From Eutreptiella sp. 'Long Island Sound 2002' (taxonomy: Eukaryota > Euglenozoa > Euglenophyceae > Eutreptiales > Eutreptiaceae): a stretch of 64,000 nt of DNA. Positions 3,881 to 45,724 of the stretch are shown one piece after another. The position numbers and the translations under genes are program-made. How positions within the stretch are numbered: position 1 is the first letter of the stretch; each line of letters starts with the position of its first letter. The notes beneath the pieces are model-generated. The model had not been told where the DNA came from. It saw nothing but the letters and a program-made list of their open reading frames with translations, and ran no database searches. The DNA lies in the NCBI GenBank assembly GCA_964036045.1, contig OZ038383.1, positions 38,938,294-39,002,293 on the forward strand, read 5' to 3'.

Positions 3881-3989
3881 GTGTGTAGGAGACTAGCATG
3901 GTTGTGTGCTAGTGCTGCATGAAATGTTATGCATTGTGGACTAGAAGACTCTCCTTGTACATAAGAGACCTTTGATGCACGCACACGAG

Positions 3990-15300: not shown

Positions 15301-18282
15301 AGCTGGTGTTTTCAGTGTGTGGTATTGTTGCAGGCAGGGAGGACAGGGTGCACAAGGCAAGACACCAGCGGGAAACAGACAGCACACACCACAACGCAAC
15401 GGCAAAACACACACAACACAGCGCACACAGCACAGGGCAACACGGCAAAACGCCGCACCTAACAGCGAAGCACCTCAAAGCACGGCACAACACCCGAGGA
15501 CAGGGCACAGCACGCAACAGCACCAAAGAGCGGGGGCAAAAACAGTACAGCCCCACGCAAACAGCACAGTGCGCAACAGCACTGCACCGCACGTGACAAC
15601 ACGACGCAACGCAGCGCAGCACAGCACGAAGAGACACAGCACAACGCGCAGGAACACAGACCCCGACCAGAGACCACCCCAAGGCACAGCGCAAAACACA
15701 GCAGCACAGCACAGCACAGCACAGCACGCAGCAAAGCACACAGCACCCAAGGCACCGCACATCGCCCGAAGGGAGGGCACAGCACGAAGCCGCAACACAC
15801 ACCGCGAGACAACGCAGAGCAGCACCACCCCCACAGCACAGTGCACAGCAGCACTGCACCACACAGCACAACACGACGCGACACGGCCCAGCACAGCACC
15901 AGGAGGCACAGCCCAGCACACAGCCAACTGCACAACGCCAAAAGACACCAGACGGCACAAAGCAACCCAAAACAGCACACAGCAGGACAGCACATCACAG
16001 AGCACCAAGACGCAGCACTCCAGCGAAAGGCGAAACGCACGACAACACAGCACAGCGCCACCAGAGACCGCAGAGCACGCAGCAATGCGCAGCCGCAGGA
16101 AGAAACCCAGCGCAGCACCACACTAACCGCGAAGCACAACAGGACACCGCACACAACGACACGGCACGCCGCACCCCGAATACCACCACACAGCAAGCAG
16201 CAACACAGCACCACAAAGCACGGAGCAAGCCAGCACAGCACAGCAACACAAACCGGCAGTAGGCATGACACACAAACAAGGGGGGCGGGCAGCACCAGGC
16301 GGCGCAAACCCGCAAGTGCGCAGAACAGGGAAGGCAGAGAGAGAACACGGCCATAACCACGACACCACACAGCAACACAGAAAACACCACAGGACACGAC
16401 AACGGACGGCGGCTCCAAAAACGATGAAACACCGCACAAAACAGCAGGGCGGAGCGGCACCAACAGAAACAGCGCGGCCAGGGCCAACGGGGGACGGCCA
16501 ACAACAAAGCCAACAACACAGCAGAACACCACACCACACAGCAAGGCACGCGCAGAACAGCACAGCACGGCACAGCAAAACAGAGCGCGCCGCACAAAAC
16601 AGCCCACACCCAAACGTGGCACCGCACAACAAGACGCGGGACACCGACACCACCAGGAGCAACCGCCGGGGGGGGGGGGGCACGGCACCAGCACGCAACG
16701 CACAGAGAGACGAACGGCCGGGAGCCGAGGGGGGAAAAAGAAACCCAACCAAACAGGTACCAGGGCCAAAGGCACGGGGAAAAACAAGTCAGCAGAACCA
16801 GGACACAGGAAAATGGGTTGCAGGGCGACGACACCCAGGAAACACGGACCGGGGGGATGAGGGGGGGAACAAACGGCCAAGCGGCGCAAACCCGGGGGAA
16901 GGCAGAGGGGGAACGGAGGAGGACGTGCGGCAGAACAACAACACCCGTGAAACACAAACCTGCGGGGGGGGGGGGGCGGGAGAACAGGAGGTGCCGACAA
17001 ACGGGACAGCGGCGCAGACCAACCACAAGGCACGGGAACAACAAGGGTAAACGCGGAGCAGGACCCCACCGGCCGCGAAACGCAAATCCCCCGGGGGGCA
17101 CAACCGCCGGCGGGCACGGGACACCAAGAAGCAAACGGGGGGGCAGAAGACAACAAGCGGAGGGGTGGGGTGGGGTGGGGTAGGGTGGGGCGGGCCAGCA
17201 GCAGGCGGCGAAAAACACCAGCGCACAGCCGGGAGCCGTGCAGACAAGAGAAAGTGGAGGGCGAGCAAGGGAAAACGAGCGGCAGGGCGACGACACCCGC
17301 AAAACAAAAACACGGGCTGGCGCAGCACACGCGCTCGGGAAGCCAGCCCGTCCGTCCCGGCCAGGCAAACACTACAGACAACCAACACCCAACAACGCCG
17401 GGCGTACGGCGGCGGGGACAACAACGAACCAACAAAACAAGCCGAGCATCGAGCCGGCTACAACACCACGAACCGAAACCCAAACACGCCGACACAACAC
17501 ACCCTACCAAGGGGGGGACTCCGCACAAACACGGCACGCCCCAACAGGGGGCAGGCACGCACCAGCACAGCACCAAGCCCGGCCAAGCAAAAAACACAAC
17601 CGCAACCGGTACCGACCCTACAGACGACCCTAACCCAAGCCAACCACCACCACCGCGGCGGGCAGGCACCAACACAGCACGCCCGACCAAGAGGGGGGCC
17701 CCGCACCAGCACACCACGCCCCACCATGAGGGAGGCCACAAACCAACACCGCACGCCCCACCATGGGGGGTTCACACACCAACACAGCACGCCCCACCAT
17801 GGGGGGGTCCACGCACAAACACAGCACGCCGCAACAGGGGGCGGGCACGCACCAGCACAGCAGCAAACCCGGCCAAGCAAACACCACAGACAACCGACAA
17901 AGGACAACGCCGGCCGTACAACACCACGAACTGAAACCCAAACACGACGACACCGCACGCCCCACCAAGGGGAGGGCCACGCACAGACACGGCACGCCCC
18001 AGCAGGGGGGGGGCACTCACCAGCACAGCACCAACCCCGGCCAAGCAAAGCAATACAACCACCACCGCAACCCACCCAACAGAAGAGGACAACCCAGGCC
18101 AAACACCACGAGACAAAACCATGCACCACCACTGCGGCAGGCAGGCACCAACACAGCACGCAACACCATGGGGGGGGGCACGCACAAACACAGCACAGAA
18201 CCAACAGGGGGGGGGGGGGGGACCCACCAGCACAGCACGAAACCCGGCTGGGCAGGCACCACAGACAACCAACAATGGACAA
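15300..18282. repeat. T-poor repeat tract, left part
   Basis: The + strand is made almost entirely of A, C and G; whole 60-base lines (for example 15661-15720 and 16501-16560) contain no T. 15300-16260 is dominated by CACAGCA/CAACACA words. 16260-17240 adds G runs (13 G at 16668-16680 and again at 16964-16976). 17380-18282 holds degenerate units of about 40 bp with CACGCCCCACCATGGGG and ACGCACCAACACAGC. Because the minus strand lacks A, stop codons are rare there and very long open frames appear; they are composition artefacts. The tract continues at 29686 on the far side of E2. Confidence 0.85.
18278..18282. repeat. E2 target-site duplication, left copy
   Basis: GACAA, repeated at 29681-29685. 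Removing E2 and one copy gives a sequence matching other units of the same tract (for example around 17890-17920, GGACAACGCCGGCCGTAC), which confirms the 5-bp duplication and the LTR ends. Confidence 0.9.
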
Positions 18283-19080
18283 AGTAAGAAAAAGTGCTTT
18301 TCCATTGCTTTGGGACATACTCTAGTTGTATTAGAGATGCACTGAGCATCCATGCATTTTTATCTTAGTATTGGTCCAGCCAAAAGTGGTGAGAACACAT
18401 TTTGACCTATGGAACCAAACACCCAATCAGGATATGGAGTGGACCCCTTAATCCCCTTTCAATCAGAAGTAAAACATCTTTTCCTGAGTTGACTGAGCAC
18501 TGACATACCTAAGGTAGAGCCTATGAATTTATCTATGTTTTTCCATGAATACTTATCTGCCCTAGTGGTATGCACCATAGGGGGTTAGGCACCTCTTTTT
18601 GAGAGGTCCTGGGTTCAATTCCTGGTCAGCCTAACTAAGTAGGAAGATCCCATGTGACATGGCAGTGACCTCATCGCCACATACCATGCCACCTCAGCAC
18701 ATATGGGACCCAAAACAAAGAGTGCACATCTCCTAAGATGGCACTATGGAGAGAGAGTGATCCTGTGGCAGTTTTCTAACTCTTTTCCCAAAACATTTCA
18801 GCTATCTCTGTGAATATGCATTCATTTGTATCCTGAGTTGCAGTTTCTGTGAATATCTAATCATCTTTCACTGTTTACACTGCAGCCCTTCATGCTTTGA
18901 TCCTGAATTACCTTCTCCTTGCATACTATTGGCTTGGGCTATCCTGTATTGAGTTGGCTTTACTGTATTTCAACAAACAAAAGCTTTTCATCATCCAAAA
19001 CCAGCAGCAGGACACCCTACAGCAACAACAAGCAGCAGGAGAAGCAAAAACACAGTGCTGAAAACACTATAAACTTTTCT
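18283..19080 (+). repeat. E2 5' LTR (798 bp)
   Basis: Starts AGTAAGAAAAAGTGC and ends ...AAACTTTTCT. The ends are AG...CT, not the usual TG...CA, as fixed by the target duplication on both sides. It contains the tRNA-like arm with GGTTCAATTCC at 18612-18622 and an anticodon-arm-like hairpin just before it. No convincing TATA box is present at the place where the E1 and E3 LTRs have one (here ACTATGGAG). Confidence 0.92.
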
Positions 19081-19093
19081 GGTAGCAAGAGGC
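19080..19093 (+). promoter_or_regulatory. E2 primer-binding site
   Basis: TGGTAGCAAGAGGC follows the LTR. It matches the initiator tRNA-Met complement (TGGTAGCAGAGG) except for one inserted A, so priming may be weakened or use a variant tRNA. Confidence 0.75.
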
Positions 19094-19178
19094 AGCCTGT
19101 CTCTGTGCACCGGCAGCGACCCCGCGCCGTACAACCAGTGCTCCGAGCAGGCAAACATAAGCAGAAGGGTGGATTAAG

Positions 19179-21680
19179 ATGGATCCAGGAAGAGTGGACG
19201 CCGATGTGAACACAGCGCCAGCGCCTGAGGCACCAGCAAGGCCGGCGCCTGACGCTGTACCTTCGGTGGAGCCCTTACATGGGCCAATGGATACGGCGGA
19301 GGACTCCCTGGATGGCCTCCAGACGGCCTTCGGGGCCCTGTCGGTGAAGGAAATGGTCTCTCAGCCTCAGCCTGTGAAGAGGAAGAGAGGAAACGAGAGC
19401 GAGAAGGATGCTGGAGAAGGAGCAGACGAAGGAGAGGAGCAAGGGCAAGACCCGACGGATGTCCCTACCTTCGAAGGCGCACCAAGCGCTTCTGGCCTCC
19501 ATGCATCACCCTCTCCCATAACCACCACACTCCCAGCCGCCGCTACATCCACTTCCACAACCAACCAGCCTATGGCAGAGGGCACAGGCTTTACTGGCAT
19601 GCCTCACTACCCCGCCTATGGCATGGGCCCACCTACCACTGCGCTCCTTGAGGCAACTACTGCCAGTGAGCCGGTGGCTTCCAGCTCTGCGCCGCGTTGG
19701 TATGCGGCTGACCATCCCCATCCACTCCACGCCACTGGAACCTACATGGAAGTTCCTGGGTATGCTCCTGGGTGTGCACCTGGATATGCACCCCTGAGTG
19801 GGTTGAGGAGAGGACCAGAGTCTCTGGGAGGCAGGAGTAGAGGATCGGGAAGATCCTCCAACAGGTCCCTGACGCGGTCGGAGATCAATGAGGTGCTCCG
19901 AGGAGCCACTTCGGAAATCGTGAGCGACCTCACGCAAGAGATCAGGGAGAAACTGCAGCCCCTGATGATCCCGTCCCATGCGTCACCTACGACAGTGGGA
20001 ATGTCACCCCACCGAGTACAGGCTAACCACCTGGCGGCAGGGTTGACGAATACTCTGGGGAGCCTGAGGAGCCGACCGATGCCGACTCCTGCAGCAGTAC
20101 CGAGAAGTCCATTCGTCCCGAGGACAGCCCAGCCGCCCTACAGTCACGTGACGAACTCGACGAGGGCCGAGCTGGACCAGCTGGGGCTGACAGCCCTAAG
20201 GGCTATGGTGGACGTGGAGCCTTATGGCTCCAGTGATCTAGGCGGAGACCCCTCCGATGATGGGCCGCCTTCGATGACTTCTTCTTCGCCATCGGACGAC
20301 GAAGACCCTGAGGACCCCGAGGACCCCAAGGGTAAGAAGAAGAAGAAGAAGAAGAATAAGACCCGACGCCCTGAAGGACGCCGAGCTCAGGAGGCGAAGG
20401 CTATTGCCACCTCCAAGATAGTGGTGAACCTGCCTGAATTCACAGGCAAGGACCTCAGCGAGTTCGCTGAGAACTTTGGCCGGTTCCTACGACTGACCGG
20501 CCAAACCCACGCGAGTGGGCGAGTGAAGTGCGACCTGCTCCTGCAGTGCTGCAAGACGAAGTACCTGGAGAAGCAGGTCAGGCAGATCGTCACCAACTCC
20601 GCCACCTTTGCCGACGTGTTGGTTGCCCTGGAGAGGCAGTACCCAACCTACGAGACCGACCTCTCCATCAGGGCCGAGATCCAGAACTTGCCCGTGCTGC
20701 CGAACAACCCCAAACCCGGCAGGGTCTCCGAGCTGTTGGCGGACCTGGACCACTGGGCTGGACGACTGACGCCCGGTTCCTACAGCAGCGACGACCTGCT
20801 GTTTTGGTTGTGCTCCAAGCTCCCCCGTGAGCTATGGGACGAGTGCCGTCTGACGGCTGAGCGCAAGGCTAGATCCCTCCGCTACGAGGATCTATGCGTG
20901 CTGCTCCTGGAGATGGCGCTGGAGAAGGAGAGCGACCAACACCTGAACCACTACCGTCCTGGTGGTGGAGGTTCTGGAGGCAAAGGGTATCAAGGGTCCC
21001 GACCTGGGCAGGGGACTACCCCCAAACACGCCCACGCCCGCCTAATGGAGAACGTGAAGGAGCTATTCTGGTGTGATGCCAGAGATGAACAGGGCCACCT
21101 GCAGCATGCCTCCGACTGCGAGCAGCGAGACTGCTTTGTAGTCCAGGGGAAGCAGCAGGAAAAGATCACCGGCGCCAAGGTGAAGCTGCCGGATCATTAC
21201 CGCTGCACCATCACGTGTGCATTCTGCGGTAAGCGGAAGCACTATGAGGACGAGTGCTACCATAAGCAACGCCTATCGGCGAAGCTTAGGGGGGAAGATC
21301 CTGGCAAAAGCTCAGGCAAAGGTGGAGGCAAGGCCAAAGGCAACGACTCCGGCAAGGGCAAGTCGAAAGGACGTGGTCAAGGTGGTCAAGACAAGGGTCA
21401 AGGCGGACGAGGAGGAGGCGCTAATCGCCAGAACGACAACAAGAACAAGGACAAGAACGGAGGTAACCCCAACCCTAATCCAGGGGGGAACTCCGAGCCC
21501 TCTGGAGGGCAGTCTGGACCTAACACACGCTCACAGACGCAGGCCCAGCAAGAACAAGGAGCCAAGCGTGAACATGAAGGTGGTGACGACGGCAACGCCA
21601 AGAAGAGAAGCCGTTTCATGAGGATGGCCCGCAAATTGCGGAACAAGGGGTTCGAGGTGACCTGTCCCGCGGAAGTCTGA
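19179..21680 (+). CDS. gag: E2 Gag polyprotein
   Basis: An 833-residue structural protein of the virus-like particle. The start is the first ATG after the PBS (MDPGRVDADVN) and aligns with the E3 start. Residues 1-250 are Pro/Ala/Ser-rich and probably disordered. Residues 225-260 hold a Ser/Arg stretch (SLGGRSRGSGRSSNRS). A basic KKKKKKNKTRRPEGRR run sits near residue 395. A capsid-like helical region follows (about 410-620: FTGKDLSEFAENFGRFL, LLADLDHWAGRLTPGSY, ELWDECRLTAERKARSL). A CCHC zinc knuckle CAFCGKRKHYEDEC is at residues 680-693 and is expected to bind genomic RNA. A Gly/Lys/Asn-rich tail follows. The ORF ends at TGA-CGG, and the same frame stays open beyond it into protease. Confidence 0.93.
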   Translation: MDPGRVDADVNTAPAPEAPARPAPDAVPSVEPLHGPMDTAEDSLDGLQTAFGALSVKEMVSQPQPVKRKRGNESEKDAGEGADEGEEQGQDPTDVPTFEGAPSASGLHASPSPITTTLPAAATSTSTTNQPMAEGTGFTGMPHYPAYGMGPPTTALLEATTASEPVASSSAPRWYAADHPHPLHATGTYMEVPGYAPGCAPGYAPLSGLRRGPESLGGRSRGSGRSSNRSLTRSEINEVLRGATSEIVSDLTQEIREKLQPLMIPSHASPTTVGMSPHRVQANHLAAGLTNTLGSLRSRPMPTPAAVPRSPFVPRTAQPPYSHVTNSTRAELDQLGLTALRAMVDVEPYGSSDLGGDPSDDGPPSMTSSSPSDDEDPEDPEDPKGKKKKKKKNKTRRPEGRRAQEAKAIATSKIVVNLPEFTGKDLSEFAENFGRFLRLTGQTHASGRVKCDLLLQCCKTKYLEKQVRQIVTNSATFADVLVALERQYPTYETDLSIRAEIQNLPVLPNNPKPGRVSELLADLDHWAGRLTPGSYSSDDLLFWLCSKLPRELWDECRLTAERKARSLRYEDLCVLLLEMALEKESDQHLNHYRPGGGGSGGKGYQGSRPGQGTTPKHAHARLMENVKELFWCDARDEQGHLQHASDCEQRDCFVVQGKQQEKITGAKVKLPDHYRCTITCAFCGKRKHYEDECYHKQRLSAKLRGEDPGKSSGKGGGKAKGNDSGKGKSKGRGQGGQDKGQGGRGGGANRQNDNKNKDKNGGNPNPNPGGNSEPSGGQSGPNTRSQTQAQQEQGAKREHEGGDDGNAKKRSRFMRMARKLRNKGFEVTCPAEV

Positions 21681-23558
21681 CGGGGACGCTCTGGTGGCAC
21701 CCAAGACCTGGTGTTTTGGGTACGTATCCGACTAGGGGGACGTGAATACCTGGGGGTACTGGATACTGGAGCCACAATATCGATAGTGGCCAAGAAAATT
21801 TTACCTTGTGGGAGCCTGAAGAACACCATGACCACCGCCGCTATACGGATGGGGGATGGACATGTGGTGCACAGCTGCGGGGACTGCGAAGTGGAGGTAC
21901 CTTTGGGCTCCAGGACTATCGCCCATCGGTTCTATGTGATGGACACTGATGCCTTCGACTTTGTACTGGGTACTGACTTCTTCGTGCAGCACTCCCAGAT
22001 ACAATCCCTGACGCTGCAAGCGCCCTACCTCCTGTACGTGGACCACGGCAGTGGCAGAGAGTCTGTGCCACTGGAGCAGTCGGAACATACCTCGAGTTAC
22101 CTGAGACTATCGGAGGAGGAGCCGTCGAACATGATGGCGGCCTCCAAAACTGAGGACTATCAACTATTGGGGGAAGTTCTAGACCAAGGTCTGAAGGAGT
22201 TGGGTTACTCTCGGGAAGACCTAAGTGTGGAGCTGTTCGCCAGCGACAAGCAGCATGTACTGGACCTATACTGCAGCAAGGGGAAGAACTGCAGCTACAA
22301 ATTTTACTGGCCCTCTTTCGGGATTGCCTACGGGAACCCCAGATTCAGTGAACTGGGGAAGGTGCTGACCAAGGTGGCCTTGGAACGTTCCCGTATGGTC
22401 CTGTGTTCCCCCGATAGGGGAGCCCATGGGGGCAACGAGTACTGGCGAACCCTCCTTGACAAGCTGACTATCAGCTCTGTGCGGTTACCTGATGAGGCCA
22501 TCTACGTGCCTCTGGGACGCAAGACGCCCATCGGGAAGCCCGGATGGGGGAGTATGCTCAGCGTGGTGGACGGAAGTCTTACCACCATCCCCTGGGAAGA
22601 CCTGGACCCTACTCTGGTCCAGGCTATACAACGAGAAAGCGATGGACTCGCCTTGGGTGACTTGAAGGATCGCCTACGACCTCAAGATGCTGTTGAAACT
22701 ACACCCGGAGGGGATGAGTACGTCGTGACTGACACCAACGCCCCCAACTCTCCCTGTCATGTACCTGTTCCTGATGGAGTCTCTGAGTGTGGACTATCTG
22801 AGCTACCTAGCTCTATCCGGTCAGACGACGAAACTGAGCACGACGCCTTCTTCGTGCAGACTGCGGTGGAAGAAGTGGAGAACGCAGAGTACGTCGCCCC
22901 ACTAAAACCCCTACTCTCCATGAGGGTGGAAGACCCCGTGGATGAAGAGCTGGACCCTCGATCCAGGCTCAGGGAGTATGTGGATTCCAAGAGAAAGTTG
23001 GTGGCGAAAAAGCTATGCTATGCGAAGCCTACCCGCAGCTCCTGGCCACTGAAGCAAGGACGTATGGGAGACCTATCCCAACTGAAGGAGGACCTCGAAC
23101 AGAAGATCACCACCTGGCAAAGGGAGGTAGATCTCAAGCTCATGAAGAGCGTATGGGGTGCCCATGTGAGGACCCCAGAGGAGGACGACCTCTCGGAGGA
23201 ATGTGTATGTGAACCCCCTAAAGCGTGCCTATGTTGCCATCGTCCACCGGAGATGGTTGAGCAAGACCTTCTGTATGCCTACCAAGGGCTGAAGGATGCT
23301 ACCGCGGGCGAAGAGTCGTTGGAGGACCACCTCCCGACGTCTATTCAAGGGGGCAAGCAACTTACACTCCGACGAGGACATGGAGGACAAGATCAAGGTA
23401 CTGGACCCGCGGGTACAAAAGCTGACAAGGACCTATCTGGAGGTGTTCGGAGAACTACCCCCTCCAGCCTCATGCGACAAGCTGGTACAGATGGACCTCA
23501 AGCTGAAACCCGAGTTCGTGGGTCACAAGATCCGGAGGAGACCCTATCCAGCTCCTAA
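21681..23558 (+). CDS. pol: E2 Pol N-terminal part: protease and Dam-like domain
   Basis: The open frame continues directly from gag after TGA and has no ATG near its start, which fits readthrough expression. Counting from the GTG at 21711, residues 1-110 are a retropepsin, with VLDTGATISIVA as active site and FDFVLGTDFFVQH as the second motif. Residues about 165-290 form a block resembling the Dam/N6-adenine methyltransferase-like domain of DIRS elements: VELFASDKQ at 173, YGNPRFSELGKVLTKVALERSRMVLCSPD, then AIYVPLGRKTPIGKPGW. Residues 290-520 are acidic and include a Cys cluster, CVCEPPKACLCCH. The genuine frame is left at a 5-G run (23349-23353); E3 has 4 G there and continues into RT. The residues after that point (about 68) are out-of-frame translation. 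Confidence 0.88.
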   Translation, partial: RGRSGGTQDLVFWVRIRLGGREYLGVLDTGATISIVAKKILPCGSLKNTMTTAAIRMGDGHVVHSCGDCEVEVPLGSRTIAHRFYVMDTDAFDFVLGTDFFVQHSQIQSLTLQAPYLLYVDHGSGRESVPLEQSEHTSSYLRLSEEEPSNMMAASKTEDYQLLGEVLDQGLKELGYSREDLSVELFASDKQHVLDLYCSKGKNCSYKFYWPSFGIAYGNPRFSELGKVLTKVALERSRMVLCSPDRGAHGGNEYWRTLLDKLTISSVRLPDEAIYVPLGRKTPIGKPGWGSMLSVVDGSLTTIPWEDLDPTLVQAIQRESDGLALGDLKDRLRPQDAVETTPGGDEYVVTDTNAPNSPCHVPVPDGVSECGLSELPSSIRSDDETEHDAFFVQTAVEEVENAEYVAPLKPLLSMRVEDPVDEELDPRSRLREYVDSKRKLVAKKLCYAKPTRSSWPLKQGRMGDLSQLKEDLEQKITTWQREVDLKLMKSVWGAHVRTPEEDDLSEECVCEPPKACLCCHRPPEMVEQDLLYAYQGLKDATAGEESLEDHLPTSIQGGKQLTLRRGHGGQDQGTGPAGTKADKDLSGGVRRTTPSSLMRQAGTDGPQAETRVRGSQDPEETLSSS

Positions 23559-26016
23559 AGAGCAGGCCGACGAGGTTGAGCGACAGATACAAGAATGTAT
23601 CGACGCTGGCCTAGTCCTGGAGTACAAGGATGGGGACTACCCCCTACACTGCAGCCCCTGTTTCCTGGTGGCTAAACCTGGGTCTACAGCCAAACGGCTG
23701 GTAGTGGCCTATGGAGAGCTGAACAAGAAGACGCTGAACTTCTCAGGGTCCATTCCCAATATGGAGTCTACCCTGGAGAAGATAGCCTCCTGTCGCTACA
23801 AGACCAAGATGGACAAGCGAAGTGGATTCTGGCAAGTGGACCTGACGCCCAACGCGCAGGAACTACTGGCCTTCATCACCCCTCAGGGGAGGGTATTCAA
23901 GTGGAAGGTCATCCCATTCGGCGTGGCTAACGCACCCGCTCTGTTCCAAGAGCTGATGAACAAGATCTTGTCCATCCTACGAAGGAGACCTAAGGTGCAG
24001 GAGCTCATATCCCGTGGGGCCCAGATGGAGGCGCACATCCACGATGTATGCCTCGGAACCAATACCCAGGAGGATCACCTAATCCTCTTGGGTGAGTTCT
24101 TTGCGGTCTGCCAGGAGAACCACACACGACTCAAGCTGGAGAAGTGTGAGTTCATGCAGGAGACCATGCAGTACTTGGGGTTTGACGTTGGCTATGGGTG
24201 GTGGACCCCAGCGGCCACTAAGGCCAAACCCCTGATGGATGCCAAGGTACGACACGAAGACCCCAAGAAAGGACTGCATGATGTACGCAGTTTCATTGGG
24301 GCGTGCAACTTCTATCGCCGCCACATCAACAACTTCACCTATACCAGCGCCGTTCTGACGGACTTGATCAAGAAGAGTACTACTTGGCGCTGGGGCCCAC
24401 AAGAGCAACAAGCGTTTGACGAGCTCAAAGACAAGGTAGCCAACGCTAAGTGCTTGGGCGTGCCTAGGGCACAAGGGGAGATTATCCTGGTGACCGACGC
24501 CAGCAATGTGGGCGGTGGTGGAACGTTGTTCCAATGGCAAGCACTAGAGAAGGAGGAGTTCGACTCGGCCATTTCCCAATGGGGGACGGAAGGTCTCAAC
24601 CGAGATGGAACCCTCAAGCACAGCTACCCTAACGACAAGTGGGTCCTAGTACCTCTGGGCCACTGGAACTGGAAGTGGAACCAGGCCAGGGGGAACTACT
24701 CCACATATGAGCAGGAATTGCTCGCGGGTATGCTGGTGCTATCCTCGCAAGCACGACTATTCGGGAGTAACCCTGTGGTCTGGCTGTGCGACCAAGAACC
24801 AGTCCGCAGTTTCCAGAAGGGCCCCCCACCTGAGAAGGCCAAGCTACGTCGCTGGTGGACCTACCTCAGTCAACTACGGCTGACGGTACACCATATCCAG
24901 GGAGTGAAGAACGAGTGCGCCGACTACATCAGCCGCAACAACTTCGACGCCCTGATTGGTGCCCGGTCTGAAGCGCTGGCTAAGGAGGCGTTCAGCCGTA
25001 TGGACGTACACCTGGACCTGAACATGACCATGATACGCCCCCTGGATGGACTCCAACAATCGGAGTACCTACAGGAGTTTGGGGATATCTACCGGCGCCT
25101 GGAGAAACGCCTTGAACCCCTCCTGGTCAACCAAGACCAGTGGAAGCGGGACAAGAGCGACCTCTGGCACGAGGACCGCATCGTGGTGCCTAGTGACCGA
25201 GTCCCAGCGCTGCTGAAGTGGACCCATGAGTCCAGTGGTCATGTGGGTGCTGACCGTACCCTGAGGCTGTTCAAGCAGTGGTTCCACACTACGTGGACTG
25301 ACGACCAGCTGCGGAAGACGCTCCTGCCTATCGTGGACAAGTGCCCGTGCAGGTCCTGTAAACCAGCAGATATCAGGGACAGAGGTCTCTACTCGACCCT
25401 GCCCATCTCTCACTGTGCTAACAGTGTTCTATACGTGGACTACACGGAGATGCCGAAGTTCGGGGGCTATGACTTCGCCCTCCTGGTAACCTGTGGGTTG
25501 ACCAGGTTCACCAGGGTGTTCCCATGTACCAAGCACATTACCGGAGAGGAGGCTATCAAGATACTCCTGGAGGAGTGGTTTTGTGTCTATGGGGCGCCCA
25601 AGGAGATGAACTCCGATGAGGACGTACGAGTACGCTCAGATACTGGCTGGTACAAGAGGGTCCTGAGGTCCCTCAATGTCCAGGTGTCTACGGGGATTCC
25701 CTACTCTCACACGAGCAACCCCCTATGTGAGCGACAGATTCGTGTCCTGAAGGAGAACGTCAGGATATGGTGCAAAACTGAACGCACCAGAGACTGGGTG
25801 AGACTACTCCCCGTCATATCCTTGATGATGAACTCCCAAGAGAGTTCAGCTACTGGCTACTCGCCACATGAGCTATTCATGGGGCGCCCGGCGTGGTTCC
25901 TACATGCCCCCTATCCAGAGGACACCCATTCTTCTGTGGGTGAGTGGGTCCAAGAGCAACAAGCGAAGGTTGACAAGGCCAAGGCTATGCTCCAGAGAGT
26001 GAGGGAGCGTCAGTGA
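23354..26016 (+). CDS. pol: E2 Pol: reverse transcriptase, RNase H, integrase
   Basis: The frame is open from 23296; genuine homology to E3 begins just after the G run (SNLHSDEDMEDK). Residues counted from 23296. RT: fingers SPCFLVAKPGSTAKRLVVAYGELN, motif A KMDKRSGFWQVDL (Asp 173), PFGVANAPALFQELMNK, and motif C at 246-250 reading AHIHDV where an Asp pair is expected. RNase H: VTDASNVGGGGTL (Asp 401), YSTYEQELLAGM, HHIQGVKNECADYISRN. Integrase: HHCC zinc domain with H644, H649, C685 and C688, then the catalytic triad Asp 715 (VDYTEMP), Asp 774 (NSDEDV) and Glu 812 (NPLCERQIR). It copies element RNA and inserts the DNA. It ends at a TGA where E3 has TGG, so the stop is a nonsense mutation and the C-terminal module lies beyond it. 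Confidence 0.93.
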
Positions 26017-26610
26017 AACAAGAAGAACAAGCACCGAGTACCGGCCACCTACCAAGAGGGGGACTGGGTGCTGGTGCACCACAGTCGACTACCCGCCTGG
26101 CCTCGCTCTACCAGCGATGACCCATACTTCGGGCCGTACAAGATTCTATCTGTGGATGGTCACCGTATCACGGTGCGGTGTTCTCCCCGTCCAGGGGGGA
26201 CCCTGGTGTGCGCCGCTCAACACCTGAAGCGCTACCATGATCCTGAAGACCTCTGTGGGGAGGAGTGGGAGCTGAACGACGAGGAAATCGCCGCTCTGGA
26301 CCTACAAGGGGCTGCCAGCCCTATGGAAGTTGAAGGTGAACTCCCCGACATGGACGCCGAGGAGATGGCTAAGGAGGGCTTCTACCTGGTGAAGTCTGTC
26401 CTACGCCACCGCTATCGCCAGGGTTGGCGCTTCCTCACCCTCTGGGAAGGGTTTGGAGTCGAAGAGGCCACCTGGGAGCCCTTCTCTGCATTTGTTCTAC
26501 CTGAGGGACGCCTAAACTCAGTTCTGGTTGACTACTTGTCCCAGAACAACCTTGGTGAGTTGTTGAGGCTCGCTGAGACGCTTGCCTCCAAGAATAAAGC
26601 TAGGGACTGA
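26017..26610 (+). pseudogene. pol: E2 integrase C-terminus: GPY/F module and chromodomain
   Basis: Same frame as the integrase but cut off by the TGA at 26014-26016. It contains DPYFGPYKILSVDGHRITVRC, a GPY/F module (about 26120-26180), and, at about 26375-26490, GFYLVKSVLRHRYRQG.., FLTLWEGF and ATWEPFSAF, matching the chromodomain pattern (YxVEKIL..., YLVKWxGY, TWEP). In chromoviruses this domain directs integration by binding modified histones. It ends with an Asn/Leu-rich tail and TGA at 26608-26610. Expression would need readthrough of a TGA followed by A, or it is simply lost. Confidence 0.85.
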
Positions 26611-27200
26611 ACCTTACCCTTACCTGCCAAAGCGTATGTGTGAGTGTGCTAGTCCTAAGGTCCTGAGAGCAAGCCGCAGAAGTGGTGTCCTAATTATACC
26701 CAAGTCTGCGCCCTTGCTGAACCTGGAGGGTTGGCTTATTGATGCCACGGGGTACGCCCCGGGTCTCCCCTCCCCTATGCGCCCAATTTCTGTGCTGGCG
26801 CAAAACCTTGGGGGAATACCCAGAGTGTTAATCCAGGTATTGTTTTCCCTACCTACCTGTCTACTAAAGGGAGGGGTGGCCAAAAGCTATGAAGGCATGC
26901 AAAACGCCTGTTTGCTATGTGGCCAAAACACTGACCTAACCACTGTCACTGCCCACCAACCCAGCTAAAATTGCAGGAAAAGGGTGGGACAGTGACACGC
27001 CCCCTACAGGTCCTACACACCCTACAGTGGCACCATCCTGGTGGGCGAGCACTGGGCAACTGGCTCTAGCCCCCACTCAGGACTACCACTCCTACACGCA
27101 CACTCTACTTGGCGTTGCGAAGAGGAAGGTCTCGAGGGTCCTAGCGACCCACCTGTGAAATGACAAGAGAACACAGCGCTGCTAAGCAACTGTGGCCTCA

Positions 27201-27228
27201 CAGGGGACGCCACAACGCGTTTCCCCTG
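27201..27228 (+). promoter_or_regulatory. conserved hairpin in E2 3' region
   Basis: CAGGGGACGC pairs with GCGTTTCCCCTG across a 6-base loop with a 2-base bulge. The E3 counterpart (44898-44923) has one G fewer on the left and one C fewer on the right, so pairing is kept. Role unknown. Confidence 0.6.
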
Positions 27229-27423
27229 CAAGGGCTTGGAGGGAAGGAGTGCTGTCGTGTGCAAAGCGCAGATGTCGATGAAGTCGGACTCCCTGCTCTG
27301 CCACAGGCAGAGCGGAGTTACTTGTTTGTGTGATCTGCGCCCCTGTTTAGCAGGGCATAAAAAAATGCTGCTGCACCACTCACCCCACCTGCCCACCTGT
27401 AAAACAAAGGCAAAAGAAAGGGG

Positions 27424-27501
27424 GTTTGCGGCGGAGGAACCAAGGCACACTCCAGGTATTATACCCTTCTCAGTGTGCCCTATAATACGCTGTCCGCAAA
27501 C
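27424..27501 (+). promoter_or_regulatory. stem-enclosed interleaved RNA structure (E2 copy)
   Basis: Outer stem GTTTGCGG (27424-27431) / CCGCAAAC (27494-27501). Inside are two interleaved helices: GGCACACT (27444-27451) with AGTGTGCC (27472-27479), and GTATTATA (27456-27463) with TATAATAC (27481-27488). They form either a pseudoknot or two mutually exclusive hairpins; the single base between the last two strands makes simultaneous full pairing difficult. The E3 copy keeps all three helices with different bases in two of them. Confidence 0.72.
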
Positions 27502-28874
27502 ACGCTGCATGGAGCAGCTACCCTTGTCAAGCAAGCAAGCGTTAAGGGACTCCTCAGGTTCTCTTAAAGAACGTACGGAGGAGCCCCTGGGTAGCCTAAG
27601 CAAGGTTTACCGTGCGCACTTCGCGTGGCCTACCCTTTAATGCGTGTGTGCATGCACGAGTATGCGACAAGTTCGTGGGCAAACCTGCCCATCTACGCGT
27701 AAATCTTGACTCCACCAGGGGGTGGCCCCGCCTGGGCGTACCTACCTTACCTACCGCTGGGAAGTGAAGCAAGGTGAGAGAACAAAAGGGGCGCACGCGA
27801 GGAACGTTGCTATGCACTTGTGTGTATGACTAATCACCCTGATCTGACCGCTAATCATCTGCAATCTTTCTAATCAATCCCTCTACCGCGTCCTATCGTG
27901 GTTATCGTTGTTAACGCTGCTACACGACTCGTTCACGGAGACACGAGACGAGCAATGTGTATGCGGCATGCAAGACGAGCATACCTGTAGTTTATACCTG
28001 ATTCATTGAAGTCTTTTCAATTGATTTTCGAATTCTTGAATTATTGAAGCTTCTATTAGTATGGGTGGAATCTGTATGTTTGTTTATTAATGTGTGTCTC
28101 GTCATTTTCAAGACTACGTGATACATACGTTTATAATTCCATTATTTTTCCATTTTCCGGCGCTTCGCTAGGAGCCGCTCCTGCGCGCCGCCAATTTATG
28201 CGTATGAATTTCTAGATTTCAAAAATCCAGAGATGACTATAATTACTATAAAAATGTGCCTTTGATGCACAATTGGATTCTACTCAGGTGTGTCGTTTCA
28301 GAAAAATTCTACGCCGTCATTTGACGGATTTTGGTGTCGTCGCTTCGTTTTTGCGTGGATTCGTCCATAATTCTCCCATTCCTGCCTCTGCAGATAACCA
28401 CGCGCAGCCTCGCTGAGTAGGCCGTGTTCGGGCCGAAACGCAGGTGCCTGGAGAGACTGAGCAGAACCAAGACCCCACCAAGGGGCAAATTAACTTCTTT
28501 TTCGACTCCCTTCGCCCTAAGACAGGTCACAGGTCGCCAGCAGGTTTACGAGAACCCATGCGAGTGTGTATAATGTGTCTTGCGTTTGGGTTATGTCGAC
28601 GCTGCGTCTTGGAGGGAGGGATGCATATGCACATGTTTGGCATGCTCCCAATCTAACCCAACCAAGCCACAGGAGCCCCGGCAGCGCCAAGAGCGCTGAG
28701 TCTTCTGTAGGAAACTGTACAATCAGAGCAGCAAAAGGACGCCAGCCATGGTGAGCGCCCATTTTTCAGTGTGAGGGAGACTGTAGGTATTTTAAAGTAG
28801 ATGTGGAAACCAAGGAAAGGCCAAGAAAAATTCCCTTTTTTCCTAAAATGCGACAGTGGTGGCCACCACAGCAC

Positions 28875-28882
28875 AAGGGGGG
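28875..28882 (+). promoter_or_regulatory. E2 polypurine tract
   Basis: AAGGGGGG immediately before the 3' LTR is the expected plus-strand primer. It is preceded by CAGTGGTGGCCACCACAGCAC, shared with E3. Confidence 0.85.
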
Positions 28883-29680
28883 AGTAAGAAAAAGTGCTTT
28901 TCCATTGCTTTGGGACATACTCTAGTTGTATTAGAGATGCACTGAGCATCCATGCATTTTTCTCTTAGTATTGGTCCAGCCAAAAGTGGTGAGAACACAT
29001 TTTGACCTATGGAACCAAACACCGAATCAGGATATGGAGTGGACCCCTTAATCCCCTTTCAATCAGAAGTAAAACATCTTTTCCTGAGTTGACTGAGCAC
29101 TGACATACCTAAGGTAGAGCCTATGAATTTATCTATGTTTTTCCATGAATACTTATCTGCCCTAGTGGTATGCACCATAGGGGGTTAGGCACCTCTTTTT
29201 GAGAGGTCCTGGGTTCAATTCCTGGTCAGCCTAACTAAGTAGGAAGATCCCATGTGACATGGCAGTGACCTCATCGCCACATACCATGCCACCTCAGCAC
29301 ATATGGGACCCAAAACAAAGAGTGCACATCTCCTAAGATTGCACTATGGAGAGAGAGTGATCCTGTGGCAGTTTTCTAACTCTTTTCCCAAAACATTTCA
29401 GCTATCTCTGTGAATATGCATTCATTTGTATCCTGAGTTGCAGTTTCTGTGAATATCTAATCATCTCTCACTGTTTACACTGCAGCCCTTCATGCTTTGA
29501 TCCTGAATTACCTTCTCCTTGCATACTATTGGCTTGGGCTATCCTGTATTCAGTTGGCTTTACTGTATTTCAACAAACAAAATCTTTTCATCATCCAAAA
29601 CCAGCAGCAGGACACCCTACAGCAACAACAAGCAGCAGGAGAAGCAAAAACACAGTGCTGAAAACACTATAAACCTTTCT
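28883..29680 (+). repeat. E2 3' LTR (798 bp)
   Basis: Same length as 18283-19080 and about 99% identical by eye. GGTTCAATTCC lies at 29212-29222. It is followed by the GACAA target duplication at 29681-29685, then the T-poor tract resumes. Confidence 0.92.
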
Positions 29681-32120: not shown

Positions 32121-32325
32121 CGTCCGGATGGACGAGTGCGCGCTCGGAGGGTACCCAGCCCCTACCGGCTACGAACAGCCGCCGTCCGGATGGACGAGTG
32201 CGCGCCCGGAGGGTACCCAACCCCTACCGGCTACGATCAGCCGCCGTCCGGATGGACGAGTGCGCGCCCGGAGGGTACCCAGCCCCTACCGGCTACGAAC
32301 AGCCGCCGTCCGGATGGACCAGTGA
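32121..32325. repeat. 62-bp tandem repeat, about four copies
   Basis: CGTCCGGATGGAC recurs at 32121, 32183, 32245 and 32307, exactly 62 bp apart. Units share GAGGGTACCCA and CCCCTACCGGCTACGA. 31561-32120 between the two repeat families shows no gene. Confidence 0.9.
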
Positions 32326-32379
32326 GCGCCCCGCAGCGACGCCCCACACACGCAACACCGCACACGCAACCCACAGCAC

Positions 32380-34540
32380 ATCACACCGAGGGAGCACACC
32401 GGTGAACAAGAGCCAAGCGGCCCAGGACACCGTACGCGCAACGCAACCCACCGAGCGGGCACACCGGTGAACAGGAGCCAAGGGGCCCAGGACACCGCCC
32501 GCGCAACACAACCCACCGATCTGGCGCACCGGTGAACAGGAGCCAAGTGGCCCAGGACACCGCCCATGCAAAGCAACACACCGAGCGGGCGCACCGGTGA
32601 ACAGGGTCCAAGTGGCCCAGGACACCGCACACGCAAAACAACCCACCGAGCGGGCAAACTGGTGAACAGGAGCCAGGTGGCCCAGGACACCGCACACGCA
32701 AAACAACACACCGAGCGGGCACATCGCTGAACAGGAGCCAAGTGGCCCAGGAGAGCGCACACGCAAAGCAACGCACCGAGCGGGCACACCGGTTAACAGG
32801 AGCCAAGTGGCCCAGGACGCCGCACGAGCAAAGGACAGGACGGAGCGGGCGCACCGGTGAACATGAGCCAAGTGGCCCAGGACACCGCACAGGTAAAACA
32901 AGACACACCGAGCGGGATGGACGAATGAGCGCCCCGCAGCGACTCCCCACACATGCAACACCCCACGCGCAACCCACAGCACAGCACACCGAGGGAGCAC
33001 ACCGGTCAACAAGAGCCAAGCGGCCCAGGACACCGTGCCCGCAACGGAACCCACCGAGCGGGCACACCGGTGAACAGGAGCCACGAGGCCCAGGACACCG
33101 CACACGCAACACAACACACCGAGCGAGCACACCGGTGATCAGGAGCCACGAGGCCCAGGGCAACGCACACGCAACACAACACATCGAGCGGGCGCACCGG
33201 TGAACAGGAGCCAAGTGGCCTAGGACACCACACACGCAACACAACGCACCGAGTGGACACACCGGTGAACAGGAGCCACGAGGCCCAGGACACCGCACAC
33301 GCAACAAAACACACCGAGCGGGCGCACCGGTGAACGGGAGCCAAGTGCCCCAGGACACCGCACACGCAACACAACACACCGAGCGAGCACACAGGTGAAC
33401 AGGAGCCAAGAGGCCCAGGACACCGCACACGCAAAGCAACACACCGAGCGGGCGCACCGGTGAACAGGAGCCAAGTGGCGCAGGACACCGCCCACGCAAC
33501 ACAACACACCAGGCCGGGCACCGGTGAACGGGACCCAAGTGGCCCAGGAGACCGCACACGCAACACAACACACCGAGCGGGGACAGCGGTGAACAGGAGC
33601 CAGGAGGCCCAGGACACCGCACATGCAACGCAACACACCGAGCGGGCGCATGGGTGAACAGGAGCCAAGTGGCCCAGGACACCCAACACGCAACACAACA
33701 CACTGGGCGGGCGCACCGGTGAACAGGAGCAAAGTGGCCCATGATACCGCACACGCAACACAACACACCGAGCGAGCACACCGGTGAACAGGAGCCAAGA
33801 GGCCCAGGACACCGCACACGCAAAGCAACGGACCGAGCGGGCGCACCGGTGAACAGGAGCCAAGTGGCCCAGGACGCCGCCCGCGCAACACAACACATCC
33901 AGCGGGCGCACCGGTGAACAGGAGCCAAGTGGCCCAGGACACCGCCCAGGCAACACAACACACCGAGCGGGCACACCGGTGAACAGAATCCAGGAGGCCC
34001 AGGACACCGCACACGCAACACAACACACCGAGCGGGCGCACCGGTGAACAGGAGCCAAGTGGCCCAGGACACCGCACACGCAACACAACGCACCGAGTGG
34101 TCACACCGGTGAACAGGAGCCACGAGGCCCAGGACACCGCACACGCAACACAACACACCGAGCGGGCGCACCGGTGAACAGGAGCCAAGTGACCCAGGAC
34201 ACCGCACACGCAACACAACACACCGAGCGAGCACACCGGTGAACAGGAGCCAAGAGGCCCAGGACACCACACACGCAAAGCAACACACCGAGCGGACGCA
34301 CCGGTGAACAGGAGCCAAGTGGCCCAGGACACCGCACACGCAACACAACACACCCAGCGGGGGCACCGGTGAACGGGAGCCAAGTGGCCCAGGACACCGC
34401 ACACGCAACACAGCACACCGAGCGAGCACACCGGTGAACAAGAGCCAAGTGGCCCAGGACAGCGCAGACGCAACACAACAAACCACGCGGGCACACCGGT
34501 GAACAGGAGCCAAGTGGCCCAGGACACTGCACACACGTAG
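32380..34540. repeat. 65-bp satellite-like array, about 30 copies
   Basis: The unit contains CACCGGTGAACAGGAGCCAAG, TGGCCCAGGACACCGC and CACGCAACACAACACACC. Measured spacing is 65 bp (33195, 33260, 33325). The array is interrupted near 32915-33000 by a segment also found at about 32325-32400 (GCGCCCCGCAGCGAC). Copies alternate between AAGTGGCC and ACGAGGCC or AAGAGGCC versions, hinting at a higher-order pattern. The 790-residue minus-strand frame across it is repetitive translation, not a gene. Confidence 0.9.
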
Positions 34541-35617
34541 GGCGGCCGAGGGACAGGAAAGAACCAACACCCCATGGGTCGGACACACGGACCAAGCCGA
34601 CCCACCGGGCCAGTGGCAGGAGCGGTACTCCAAGGCCAGTGGCCCGAGCCCGACCAGGCTGCATCGGGGACCATGACAAACGTCACCCGGAGCCATGGAA
34701 GCAACCGTTGACAGGCGAGCCGGTACACAGTCCAGGAGGGGGTCGCCTGCCAAGCAGAGTGGCCCCGCAACTCAAGCAAAAAAGCGTGAGGCGGTCGTAC
34801 CGTAGACTAGCGGGAGCAATACCCCTTGTGGTGAGAGATACTTCACACGGCTGAGCAGCCCCCAAGGCTGCCGCCCAAAGGAGGGGGCATGTGGCCCTAC
34901 CCATGGACACATGTGGGGACACTCTCCAATCTGGGACACATGGACCAGGTGGCCGCGACAATGCCTTCCCAAGCACATTCGGGAGCGGCTCAAGAGGCAC
35001 CTGACAAAGGGCAGTGGGAGGGACAGGACGTCCCCTTGGTAAGACCTTCTTCCTGCATCGTCAAGGGACGCATCCCGAGCTCCCGAAGATACCTACCTAC
35101 CTACCTTTAACAAACTACACCGAACCATTAAACGACCGACCAACCAACCAGATTAACCTACTTCGAACCCCCGGCCCCCCAGGAGAGCGCAAGCTGGACC
35201 GAGTCAGGAGGCGTGACTGTGCGCCACGGCATGCGATTCCCGTAGCACGTGCTTCTTTAGGTCGCCTCACGCCTTCTGAAAACCAACCCAGGTGGGGGTG
35301 CCTGCAGGACAGGGCCTTTGGCCTGGCTCCGGGCCCCTGGGCCCCGGAATCCGGAGGCGGATGAGGATGTGCGATGGGATCCTCCCCCACGTATCACCCG
35401 CTCGAAGGAGAGGAATATGAGACTCCGGTCAAACATGGGTTACCTCGTTGGGCAGAACCCGCTGTAGGGTACTGCTCGCAGCGACCGCGCACTTCCCCCA
35501 TGTAGGGAAGGCGCTTTGTCGGGGCACCTGCAGTAGGACCGTGGGTGGGTGAGCAAAAGCCCCTTGGTAAGACCCCCTCCGGGGGCCACCCCAGTCCCAA
35601 GATACCTACCTACCTAC
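34541..35617. other. unassigned DNA with CTAC tetranucleotide blocks
   Basis: No supported gene. GATACCTACCTACCTACCT occurs near 35088 and 35601, each preceded by CCCCTTGGTAAGACC about 40-60 bases earlier (about 35032 and 35561). This suggests a diverged direct duplication of about 520 bp. Confidence 0.5.
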
Positions 35618-36036
35618 CTGCAGAGAGCAGAGAATCGTGACGCCCAAAACCTTAGCACCACTGACCCCGACACTCAATTTATACTATTGAAAATTGCAGA
35701 CATGCTCAGCGCGGTCGTTGTCAGCGTCCTCGAATCTCAGCCTGTGTCCATCTCAAAATTCGCAAAACAAAAACCTTAGAAATGCAACCCATGCTCTCGA
35801 CTGACCACACAAATTCAGGACCAACCTCGGAAGTGAGCAGGTACAGGGCTGGGGACGGAGAGTTATAGGCTGAGGGCGTCCCCTGCGCCGTATATGCCGA
35901 GAAGGCTAGCCCGCCAGATATTGCGCGGTTCGTGGACATCGACGCCTTGCTGAAATTTCCTGGAGAGAGAGTTGTGAGGTTGGGGACCGGGAGAAGCAAA
36001 CGGGAAGGAAAATGGCGTGGGAAGGGAAACAGAGGG
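35618..36036 (+). repeat. duplicated 5' flank of E3 (paired with 9636-10056)
   Basis: Paralogue of the E1 flank. From about 35871, after TTATAG, a frame common to both copies reads AEGVPCAVYAEKASPPDIARFVDIDALLKFPGERVV (in parts). It ends with GAGGG (36032-36036), which is also the E3 target duplication. Confidence 0.65.
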
Positions 36037-36810
36037 AGTAGGAAAAAGTGTATTTCCCTGCCAAATGGTTAGCGTTAGTTGTTATAAAGAGGCCTAGAGG
36101 CATAACACATTGTTATCTTAGTATTGGCCTATCCAAAAAGGGGTGACAACACATTTTGACATATAAAGCCAAGCATTGATCTATGGATGTTGGTCGGGCC
36201 CCTGACCCCCCAGCTGATTGATCTTATACACCATATCCTGGACTGACTGAGGCGCTGATATTGATCTAGATCCTATACCTTTTTCTATATTTTCTCATGA
36301 AAGCTTAGATATCCTAGTGGTCTGCACCCTAGGGGGCTGTGGCACCCCTTTTTGAGAGGTCCTGGGTTCCATTCCCAGTCAGCCTAGCTGGGTAGGAATA
36401 TCCCATGTGACATGGCAGTGACCTCAGTGCCACAAGCCATGCCGACTCAGCACCAATGGGACCCAAAACAAAGAGTGCACATCTCTAGATGGCACTATAA
36501 AAGGGAGGATGCCCATGTGGGCAGTTTTTCCATGTTTGTAGGATATTCTCTAACTATCTTTCCTAAATCTGTAGTTATTGTGGGTTTCCTGTGTTTTATT
36601 ACTATCTCCTTTGACTGCAGCCCTTCATGTTGTGGATTTGATCCTGTGGTCCTTTGCCCTGCAACCGTGGTTACTTATTTGGGTTGATTTCATCAAAGCG
36701 TATGTGTTTGGAAAACCTGAACTACATCAAGAAGCAGCAGGAGCAAGCAGGGGCATCAACAAAACAATATCATCAAAGCAATCAACAGTGAAAGCCTGTT
36801 TGGACTTTCT
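36037..36810 (+). repeat. E3 5' LTR
   Basis: Begins AGTAGGAAAAAGTG and ends ...GGACTTTCT. TATAAAAG at 36496-36503 is a likely core promoter element. The tRNA-like B-box position reads GGTTCCATTCC (36364-36374), one change from the other LTRs. Confidence 0.9.
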
Positions 36811-44923: not shown

Positions 44924-45138
44924 ATAGGGCTTGGAGGGAAGGAGTGCTCAGGTTGCGTGCACAGCGTGGATGTTGAAGAGGTCGGACTGCCCTCGCCACT
45001 CCTGGCTGAGGTGCAGTTTGTTGATTGTGTGATCAGCGCCCGTTTTAGCTTGGGCGAAAAATCCAAAAGTCGCCGAAGGCAACTACAGCTGCACCGATTC
45101 ACCCTGACCTGCCCACCCGTAAAGCGGAGGCAAATGAT

Positions 45139-45224
45139 TTGGGTTCAGGACTGAGGAACCAAGACAGCCTCCACGTATTATACCCTTTTCAGGCTGCCCT
45201 ATAATACACTGTTCCTGAACCCAA
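45139..45224 (+). promoter_or_regulatory. stem-enclosed interleaved RNA structure (E3 copy)
   Basis: Outer stem TTGGGTTCAGGA (45139-45150) / TCCTGAACCCAA (45213-45224), 12 perfect pairs. Inner helices are CAGCCT (45165-45170) with AGGCTG (45191-45196), and GTATTATA (45175-45182) with TATAATAC (45200-45207). The outer stem and first inner helix differ in sequence from E2 but still pair; the second helix and the linker GAGGAACCAAG are unchanged. Confidence 0.75.
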
Positions 45225-45724
45225 GTACAAGCAAGCAAGCTTAAGGAACTCCACTCCTCAAGAACGTAGGGTGGAGCCCCTGGGTAACCTAAACAAGAGG
45301 TTTACCGTGCGCAACACGCGTGGGCTACCCTTTAATGCGTCATATGCATGCACGGTTATGCACGAGGTTGCAAATCATCCTTACCAATGTCCTTTTTCCT
45401 ACCAATCCACACCTCAACCACCAACTCCACCAAGGGGGGGGGCCTCCTCGGCTTACCTACCTTACCTACCGCTGGAGAGCAAAGCAAGGGAAGGATAAAA
45501 CGGAACACAAGCAGAGCAGGCGTTTATGCACGCATGTGTATGTTCTAATCACCCGATCTCACCTCCAGTCATCTTGCAATCTTGTCATCTGTCCCTGCAT
45601 TGTATGTTTGCGTTGCTACACTGCACGTTCAGGATAACACGAGACAAGCATCTGCATGCTGCATACGAGGCAAACAAGACCTGTATGTTTATACCTTGTT
45701 CTTTGAATTCATCTTGAGCTTGTT

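Follow-up and report, generated by a model that had tools for sequence, protein, structure and literature searches.

Three helices can be drawn at positions 27424-27501 of a stretch of Eutreptiella DNA, in the 3' part of an LTR retrotransposon, and they raise the question of whether the RNA of this element is held to a fold by selection and, if so, what that fold would do. The whole stretch that was analysed (64,000 nucleotides, positions 38,938,294-39,002,293 of contig OZ038383.1, hereafter the window) comes from a genome of 2.28 Gb in 2,205 contigs. A sequence-only reading of two elements in it, E2 and E3, had proposed an outer stem enclosing two interleaved helices, here named a and b, with the strand order a, b, a', b'.

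The host element and its noncoding 3' region

E2 (about 18284-29679) is a Ty3/gypsy-type LTR retrotransposon, with two LTRs, a PBS-like sequence, a polypurine tract and the gene order of this type. Its main features are:

18284..19079, + strand: 5' LTR, ends approximate (LTR matches at about 18280-19080 and 28880-29680)
from 19080, + strand: PBS-like sequence TGGTAGCA, directly after the 5' LTR, assigned by resemblance
23344..26607, + strand: part of pol with RT, RNase H and integrase (Pfam domain matches)
28884..29679, + strand: 3' LTR, ends approximate, with a GGGGGG polypurine tract just before it

Protease, RT, RNase H and integrase follow one another in the order of Ty3/gypsy elements. 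RT and RNase H exceed the Pfam cut-offs, the protease matches lie at or just under them, and the integrase matches are below them (E 6.6e-6 and 7e-4). The PBS is iMet-like, an identity of the primer that we presume, and no tRNA genes were found within the window. PF00385, the chromodomain at the integrase C-terminus that serves as the test for chromoviruses, has entries for relatives, P0036, P0058 and P0065 among them, and none for the E2-like P0001. The match between E1 and E3 stops at 14794, inside pol, so that E1 does not include the RNA region studied here.

Pol ends at 26607 in E2 and at 44373 in E3. In the five aligned blocks that follow it, 27 of 34 gaps are not multiples of three, and the third-position excess of differences seen in pol appears in none. 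The block 27506-27660 has one quiet phase (mismatch 0.18, 0.18 and 0.05), unlike pol, and 4 of its 6 gaps are not multiples of three. A coding 3' region was accordingly rejected on gap lengths and codon-phase pattern, and the earlier placement of the structure in a noncoding stretch between pol and the 3' LTR stands. The overlapping reading frames that mark a -1 frameshift signal are likewise missing, the region being noncoding.

The window has further features. In both elements the polypurine tract is closely preceded by a perfect 14-bp palindrome, GTGGTGGCCACCAC (28856-28869 in E2, 48796-48809 in E3), and the LTR of E3 (36034-36800) contains GGTTCCATTCC, which resembles what we take to be the tRNA B box motif. 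Direct repeats of 65 bp form an array at 32247-34578. The + strand is rich in A over T at 16-18 kb and 30-34 kb, where the AT skew reaches 0.86. A tandem duplication of about 3.8 kb (56572-60702 and 58825-62973) is 97-98% identical in the pieces compared, and each duplicate holds ORFs of 319 and 191 aa.

Pairing and covariation in the a/b module

The module was laid out on E2 and followed in E3 and in two further DNA copies from the genome, L013 and L028:

27424..27431, + strand: outer stem, 5' strand; 8-bp core with 27494-27501, four double compensatory changes between E2 and E3
27494..27501, + strand: outer stem, 3' strand; one C.U mismatch in L028
27419..27423, + strand: lower outer stem of E2, 5' strand; pairs with 27521-27525 in the minimum-energy fold
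27521..27525, + strand: lower outer stem of E2, 3' strand; from the minimum-energy fold and the four-copy alignment
27504..27518, + strand: extra hairpin of E2 on the 3' side of the outer stem; the stretch is in L013 and missing from E3 and L028
27434..27444, + strand: invariant linker GAGGAACCAAG, the same in E2, E3, L013 and L028
27446..27451, + strand: helix a, 5' strand; 6 bp with 27472-27477, double changes at 3 of 6 pairs among the four copies
27472..27477, + strand: helix a, 3' strand, from the four-copy alignment
27445 with 27478, + strand: variable seventh pair of a, found as G-C, A.C or C.A
27456..27463, + strand: helix b, 5' strand, in the loop of a; 8 bp with 27481-27488, invariant in the four copies
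27481..27488, + strand: helix b, 3' strand, directly 3' of a'
45137..45226, + strand: copy of the structure in E3, the same columns as in E2 at +17719

All three helices pair perfectly in E2, as had been read from the sequence. E2 27424-27501 aligns with E3 45143-45220 without any indel. As had also been noted, the outer stem of E3 has different bases and pairs over 12 bp (45139-45150/45213-45224). Its pair changes from E2 to E3 are T-A to C-G, G-C to A-T, C-G to G-C and G-C to A-T. Helix a shows the two compensatory changes already noticed, C-G to G-C and A-T to C-G (CACACT/AGTGTG to CAGCCT/AGGCTG); helix b shows none, and it and the linker are unchanged, as claimed, here and also in L013 and L028. 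Six of the 22 core pairs thus differ on both sides between E2 and E3, with no one-sided change and no broken pair. The minimum-energy fold of E2 continues the outer stem as 27419-27423/27521-27525 beneath the hairpin 27504-27518, and 27419-27422/27522-27525 are paired in all four aligned DNA copies, with three double changes.

Helix a reaches 8 bp in E2 when 27444-27445/27478-27479 are added. Since 27445-27478 fails to pair outside E2 (G-C in E2, A.C in E3 and L028, C.A in L013), the shared helix a has 6 bp and the linker between a' and b' has 3 nt. The single base described between a' and b' is therefore right for the 8-bp helix of E2 and wrong for the shared 6-bp form, whose loops are 4, 8 and 3 nt long. 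In the DNA copies 27445/27478 is a purine opposite a pyrimidine, as if an A+.C wobble were tolerated or the antisense strand were relevant; the protein row P0150, of a set described below, has A.A there.

Chance was assessed by scanning an alignment of E2 and E3 (8,672 columns, E2 19485-28013) for helices of at least 6 bp with a span of at most 150. Five helices had at least two double changes: the outer stem ranked first as the sole helix with four, and helix a, nested inside it, was one of the four that had two. When the columns of the 897-column noncoding block were shuffled 40 times, the mean was 0.025 and the maximum 1 such helices, against 2 observed. No other interleaved pair of the a/b size class exists in E2 27171-28013 or in the corresponding part of E3, and a pseudoknot of this class was found in 0 of 60 dinucleotide shuffles of each region. 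The fold z-score of E2 was -3.3, with none of 200 shuffles equally good; that of E3 was a modest -1.8 (10 of 200).

To extend the comparison, genome stretches totalling 300 kb were sampled for more copies. A single copy, the E2-like element L013, was found in L001-L022 (220 kb). L028, a distant relative in a large inverted duplicate, is not a random draw, because L023-L030 were picked adjacent to L013. Its inverted arms, 3200-4104 (-) and 9133-10000 (+), hold pol and the 3' domain and differ at 3 of 868 compared positions. Another stretch, L007, encodes a distant Gag relative at 4867-6162 (34% identity), and the 10 kb around it gave no match to the RNA model.

Among the four DNA copies, 98.9% of the 88 core cells are paired, compared with 28-48% when the alignment is slid, and 7 of 22 core pairs show double changes; the helices are thus kept in the added copies. 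Adding the variable end pairs gives 91.7% of 120 cells. Helix a of L028 reads CUACCU/GGGUAG, with three double changes relative to E2 plus a change from U-A to U.G, and its outer stem, like that of E3, continues beneath the 8-bp core. On four of five measures, among them pairing, double changes and the covariation score, none of 500 shuffles came up to the observed value; on the fifth, the number of pair types, 6 of 500 were as high. When a model of the outer stem and a was searched against 364 kb, it found five places, namely the four training copies and the second arm of L028.

Genome-wide, the linker GAGGAACCAAG and the downstream CAAGCAAGCAAGC, which lie outside the three core helices, are found 60-90 nt apart at 8,778 places, and a reversed control gave 0. 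Across these, the helix-a pair 27449-27474 is C-G in 1512, C-T in 33 and A-G in 30, with A-T bounded only, at 7203 or fewer; under independence, each mismatch would be expected about 620 to 1270 times for 1000 to 7203 A-T. Pair states track subfamilies, because all 100 C-G places listed of the 1512 belong to the short class (88-89 nt). The counts therefore mean that mismatched intermediates never grew into large subfamilies and, the copies being related, do not represent thousands of independent events.

A further source of variation was the protein database, where 52 proteins from chance ORFs cross the element (8 antisense, 44 sense) and their codons fix many bases. Forty-four of the 52 were usable as rows beside E2 and E3, and eight with an alignment score below 50 were dropped; 28-34 rows, E2 and E3 included, span both sides of a given pair. 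Cells that could not pair under any codon choice numbered 5 of 228 in the outer stem, 6 of 191 in a and 2 of 241 in b, versus 65-93, 25-99 and 71-139, respectively, after sliding by 1-3 columns, while codons left 118, 100 and 121 cells ambiguous. With 27445-27478 excluded, all 13 double changes of determined state pair (7 outer, 6 in a), six of them being E3 itself, and two more are ambiguous. The pair 27448-27475 appears as C-G, G-C and A-T, 27449-27474 as A-T and C-G, and the outer pair 27431-27494 as G-C, A-T and G-T.

Exceptions occur in each helix. A pair of a is broken in P0139, P0140, P0150, P0153, P0163 and P0168, where the break in P0140 may be an alignment artefact of an insertion in a'; at the two pairs that end helix a (27444-27445), pairing is impossible in 10 of 56 cells. 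Outer pairs are broken in P0138, P0165 and P0168. A pair of b is broken in P0133, which stands for a cluster of 22 members and has C.A at 27459-27485, and in P0165. P0163, P0165, P0168 and P0172 are biased against b, because an intact b' is a stop codon in their frame. The initial M of a protein row may stand for GTG or TTG. Apart from pairing, P0171 and P0159 appear to be deletion derivatives, in which the protease frame or the integrase C-terminus runs straight into the 3' UTR; by inspection, the break in P0159 falls within the a/b structure.

Taken as a whole, the outer stem and a are kept through compensatory change, and the linker, b and much of the loops are kept by sequence. The proposal of selection on RNA structure is borne out by the E2/E3 covariation, by the shuffles and by the two further DNA copies that keep the fold. 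That the helices reflect nothing but chance complementarity and common descent is scarcely credible to us: few independent lineages stand behind the comparison, which speaks for such a reading, but the E2/E3 helix scan, the pseudoknot shuffles and the four-copy shuffles are all contrary to it, and the two mismatched states are rare among thousands of copies.

The same pairs bear on which strand is structured. On an antisense transcript, the A.C and C.A at 27445-27478 and the C.A at 27459-27485 of P0133 turn into wobble pairs. However, one-sided G.U changes pair on the sense strand only, namely U.G at 27451-27472 in L028 and G.U in the protein rows P0138, P0162 and P0164, and perhaps in a fourth row. 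The genomic RNA is also sense, and we regard an antisense structure as very improbable.

Pseudoknot order and the larger domain

The sequence-only reading had left a choice between a pseudoknot and a bistable switch and had leaned towards alternative hairpins. Helices a and b have no bases in common and so are not mutually exclusive by pairing. A rigid A-form helix model with loop-span limits allowed clash-free placement of both, with a 6-bp a or with an 8-bp a and its 1-nt linker. This model is crude and lenient and ignores loop volume: three control cases with very short loops failed (residual 134-314), and one with 8/8 bp and loops of 4, 1 and 1 nearly passed (2.3). In terms of energy, the state with a is favoured over that with b by 10 kcal/mol in E2 and 2 in L013, and b is favoured by 1 in E3. 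The best fold of L013 contains neither helix, and standard folding sometimes passes over a (mean probability 0.16 in L013 and 0.59 in E3). Two other foldings were rejected by inspection: the alternative helix 27471-27477/27487-27493 of the L013 fold is impossible in E3, and a local hairpin GGUA-UUA-UACC in place of b lacks its outer pair in E3 and leaves b' unexplained.

A switch between outer stem plus a and outer stem plus b would fit the near-equal states of E3, only 1 kcal/mol apart, but not the gaps in E2 and L013, nor the separate bases of two helices that fit together in the model, and we hold it to be quite improbable. Because both helices fit in space and the a/b energies are not kept balanced, the pseudoknot is preferred, and the lean towards alternative hairpins finds no support. 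On this modelling, a and b probably form a pseudoknot; of the covariation required in both stems of an H-type pseudoknot, a has its share and b, being invariant, has none of its own.

The 78-nt structure holds as described, and the conserved unit is larger than it. The additional features are:

27099..27665, + strand: RNA domain of about 570 nt common to E2 and the distant L028 element, with the bounds of the E2/L028 blastn match
27192..27228, + strand: second pseudoknot, canonical H-type, kept in homologues; S1 27192-27196/27209-27213, S2 27201-27207/27222-27228
27550..27583, + strand: hairpin 27550-27554/27579-27583, with a U-A to A-U double change
27610..27628, + strand: hairpin 27610-27616/27622-27628, invariant

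The blastn match of E2 to L028 is confined to 27099-27665. Identity in the domain is 81.6% over 446 aligned columns of 27166-27670, compared with 56.5% (nt) and 49.9% (aa) in the 533 shared codons of Pol. This disparity, 82% against 50%, points either to far stronger constraint on the domain than on Pol or to exchange between families; the high identity of L028 could thus reflect module exchange instead of slow evolution. Between E2 and E3 the domain is not better conserved than Pol (78.7% versus 83.9% nt).

The upstream module at 27192-27228 is of the H-type, with interleaved S1 and S2, short loops and conservation in homologues. A pseudoknot of its class has a unique place in E2 and in E3, and 2 of 60 shuffles of each have one. 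Its S2 drops one base on both sides together in E3 and L028. The hairpin 27610-27628 has no covariation support, as it does not vary.

About 570 nt in the 3' UTR of this Ty3/gypsy-type element thus make up a structured RNA domain. The module that stands out most clearly in it has an invariant linker and a closing stem, which encloses a and b in the strand order of a pseudoknot. The sequence-only reading knew of no such element in Ty3/gypsy families, and in agreement with this the window has no Rfam match at the gathering score; the E2, E3 and L028 stretches give only weak sub-threshold matches. With the queries used, no relatives were found in phages, viral contigs or bacterial and archaeal genomes. 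A consensus for the spliced leader had no match in the window, and nothing supports a dinoflagellate as host. No description of the element was found in open-licence PMC full text, and the available parts of PMC5890265, on algal retrotransposons, contain nothing on it. These results describe the domain as a structure; its role has to be weighed against known systems.

Candidate roles of the domain

To our knowledge, cis-acting RNA of LTR retroelements is well known mainly from yeast Ty elements and vertebrate retroviruses. One comparison is with the CTE and RTE export elements of simple retroviruses and IAPs, which, like the present domain between the coding region and the 3' LTR, are noncoding structured RNA upstream of the 3' LTR. 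The CTE forms a long hairpin whose two internal loops resemble each other, in contrast to the pseudoknot order inside a stem found in E2 and E3.

We tentatively favour a cis-acting signal of the genomic RNA that is read by a host factor, for export or translation, although we would put this short of even. The structured strand would be the sense strand, and a and b would form simultaneously, with b folding back alongside a and exposing the invariant linker. Acting in cis, the module would offer a slowly evolving host factor a place to dock on the full-length genomic RNA, and this factor would determine what becomes of the RNA. The step concerned would most likely be nuclear export or translation, in a role akin to that of the retroviral CTE/RTE with a different fold. 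Two elements with 50% identity in Pol (533 codons) have the linker, b and most of the core unchanged between them. Against this proposal, b has no double change in any copy, the P0133 cluster has C.A at 27459-27485, and the A.C and C.A at 27445-27478 are wobble pairs on the antisense strand.

An unlikely competitor is a signal for packaging or dimerisation that is read by Gag of the same element. In such a case two genomic RNAs may join as a strand-swapped dimer, b of one molecule pairing with b' of the other, an arrangement to which the strand order a, b, a', b' would be suited. The loop of a also holds GUAUUAUAC, self-complementary except for the central U, although 27464, the last base of this loop sequence, varies in some protein rows. 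There is precedent in Ty1: the portions of PMC5454406 available propose that a pseudoknot and kissing loops mediate dimerisation and packaging of its genomic RNA; the pseudoknot, with stems of 7 and 8 bp, is required for retrotransposition, and S2 and the hairpins also for RNA stability. Both cases place a pseudoknot in LTR-retrotransposon genomic RNA, but that of Ty1 lies in the first 326 nt and has two long loops, whereas the E2/E3 module is local, at the 3' end and inside a closing stem (PMC5454406, same portions).

Ty3 offers a second parallel. As far as the parts of PMC11381356 and PMC4974528 at hand describe it, Ty3 has a cis-acting 3' UTR region and a bipartite PBS with a 3' part, and localisation and packaging require both UTRs and POL (PMC11381356). 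E2 shares with it the Ty3/gypsy gene order, a putative cis-acting 3' UTR sequence and an iMet-like PBS, the primer being our presumption; it differs in that the Ty3 3' UTR has 214 nt and the predicted Ty3 pseudoknots lie in GAG and POL (PMC11381356, PMC4974528, same parts). Unlike in Ty3, 8 nt of the PBS were not found a second time in the 3' UTR of E2. A Gag-read signal would be expected to track Gag, yet the core is fixed while Pol, the protein compared here in place of Gag, drops to 50%. The host-read signal is favoured over Gag-read packaging because a sense orientation is likely, the module is located in the genomic RNA, and a near-invariant core lies beside diverged proteins.

Helices free to vary around a near-invariant core would also suit a mechanical or catalytic RNA, either a block to 5'-3' exonuclease or a ribozyme or aptamer with the linker, loops and b as its core. 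In some exonuclease-resistant RNAs of RNA viruses, a hairpin loop pairs with sequence 3' of the hairpin. The module resembles these in its loop-to-3'-flank pairing and its position in the 3' UTR, and it differs in its closing outer stem, its 11-nt invariant linker and the lack of an Rfam match at the gathering score. Self-cleavage in the genomic RNA would presumably damage the element, and we consider this class of explanation improbable.

Beyond the host-read signal, a broader and doubtful proposal is that the 570-nt domain is a portable module, a new double-pseudoknot class of RNA, exchanged between or held nearly unchanged in families whose Pol is at 50%; the cause would be a host machine that does not change and reads it (or a catalytic or exonuclease-blocking activity of the domain itself).

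Comparative support for the structured 3' domain is strong, one genome supplies thousands of its natural variants, and its core is sometimes more conserved than Pol. With these properties, structure and function can be tested by reporter RNAs, and a functional element is not needed. The domain could reveal how such elements attain high copy number in a large genome; if the 570-nt module is indeed portable, it may have helped them to reach thousands of copies in this one of 2.28 Gb.
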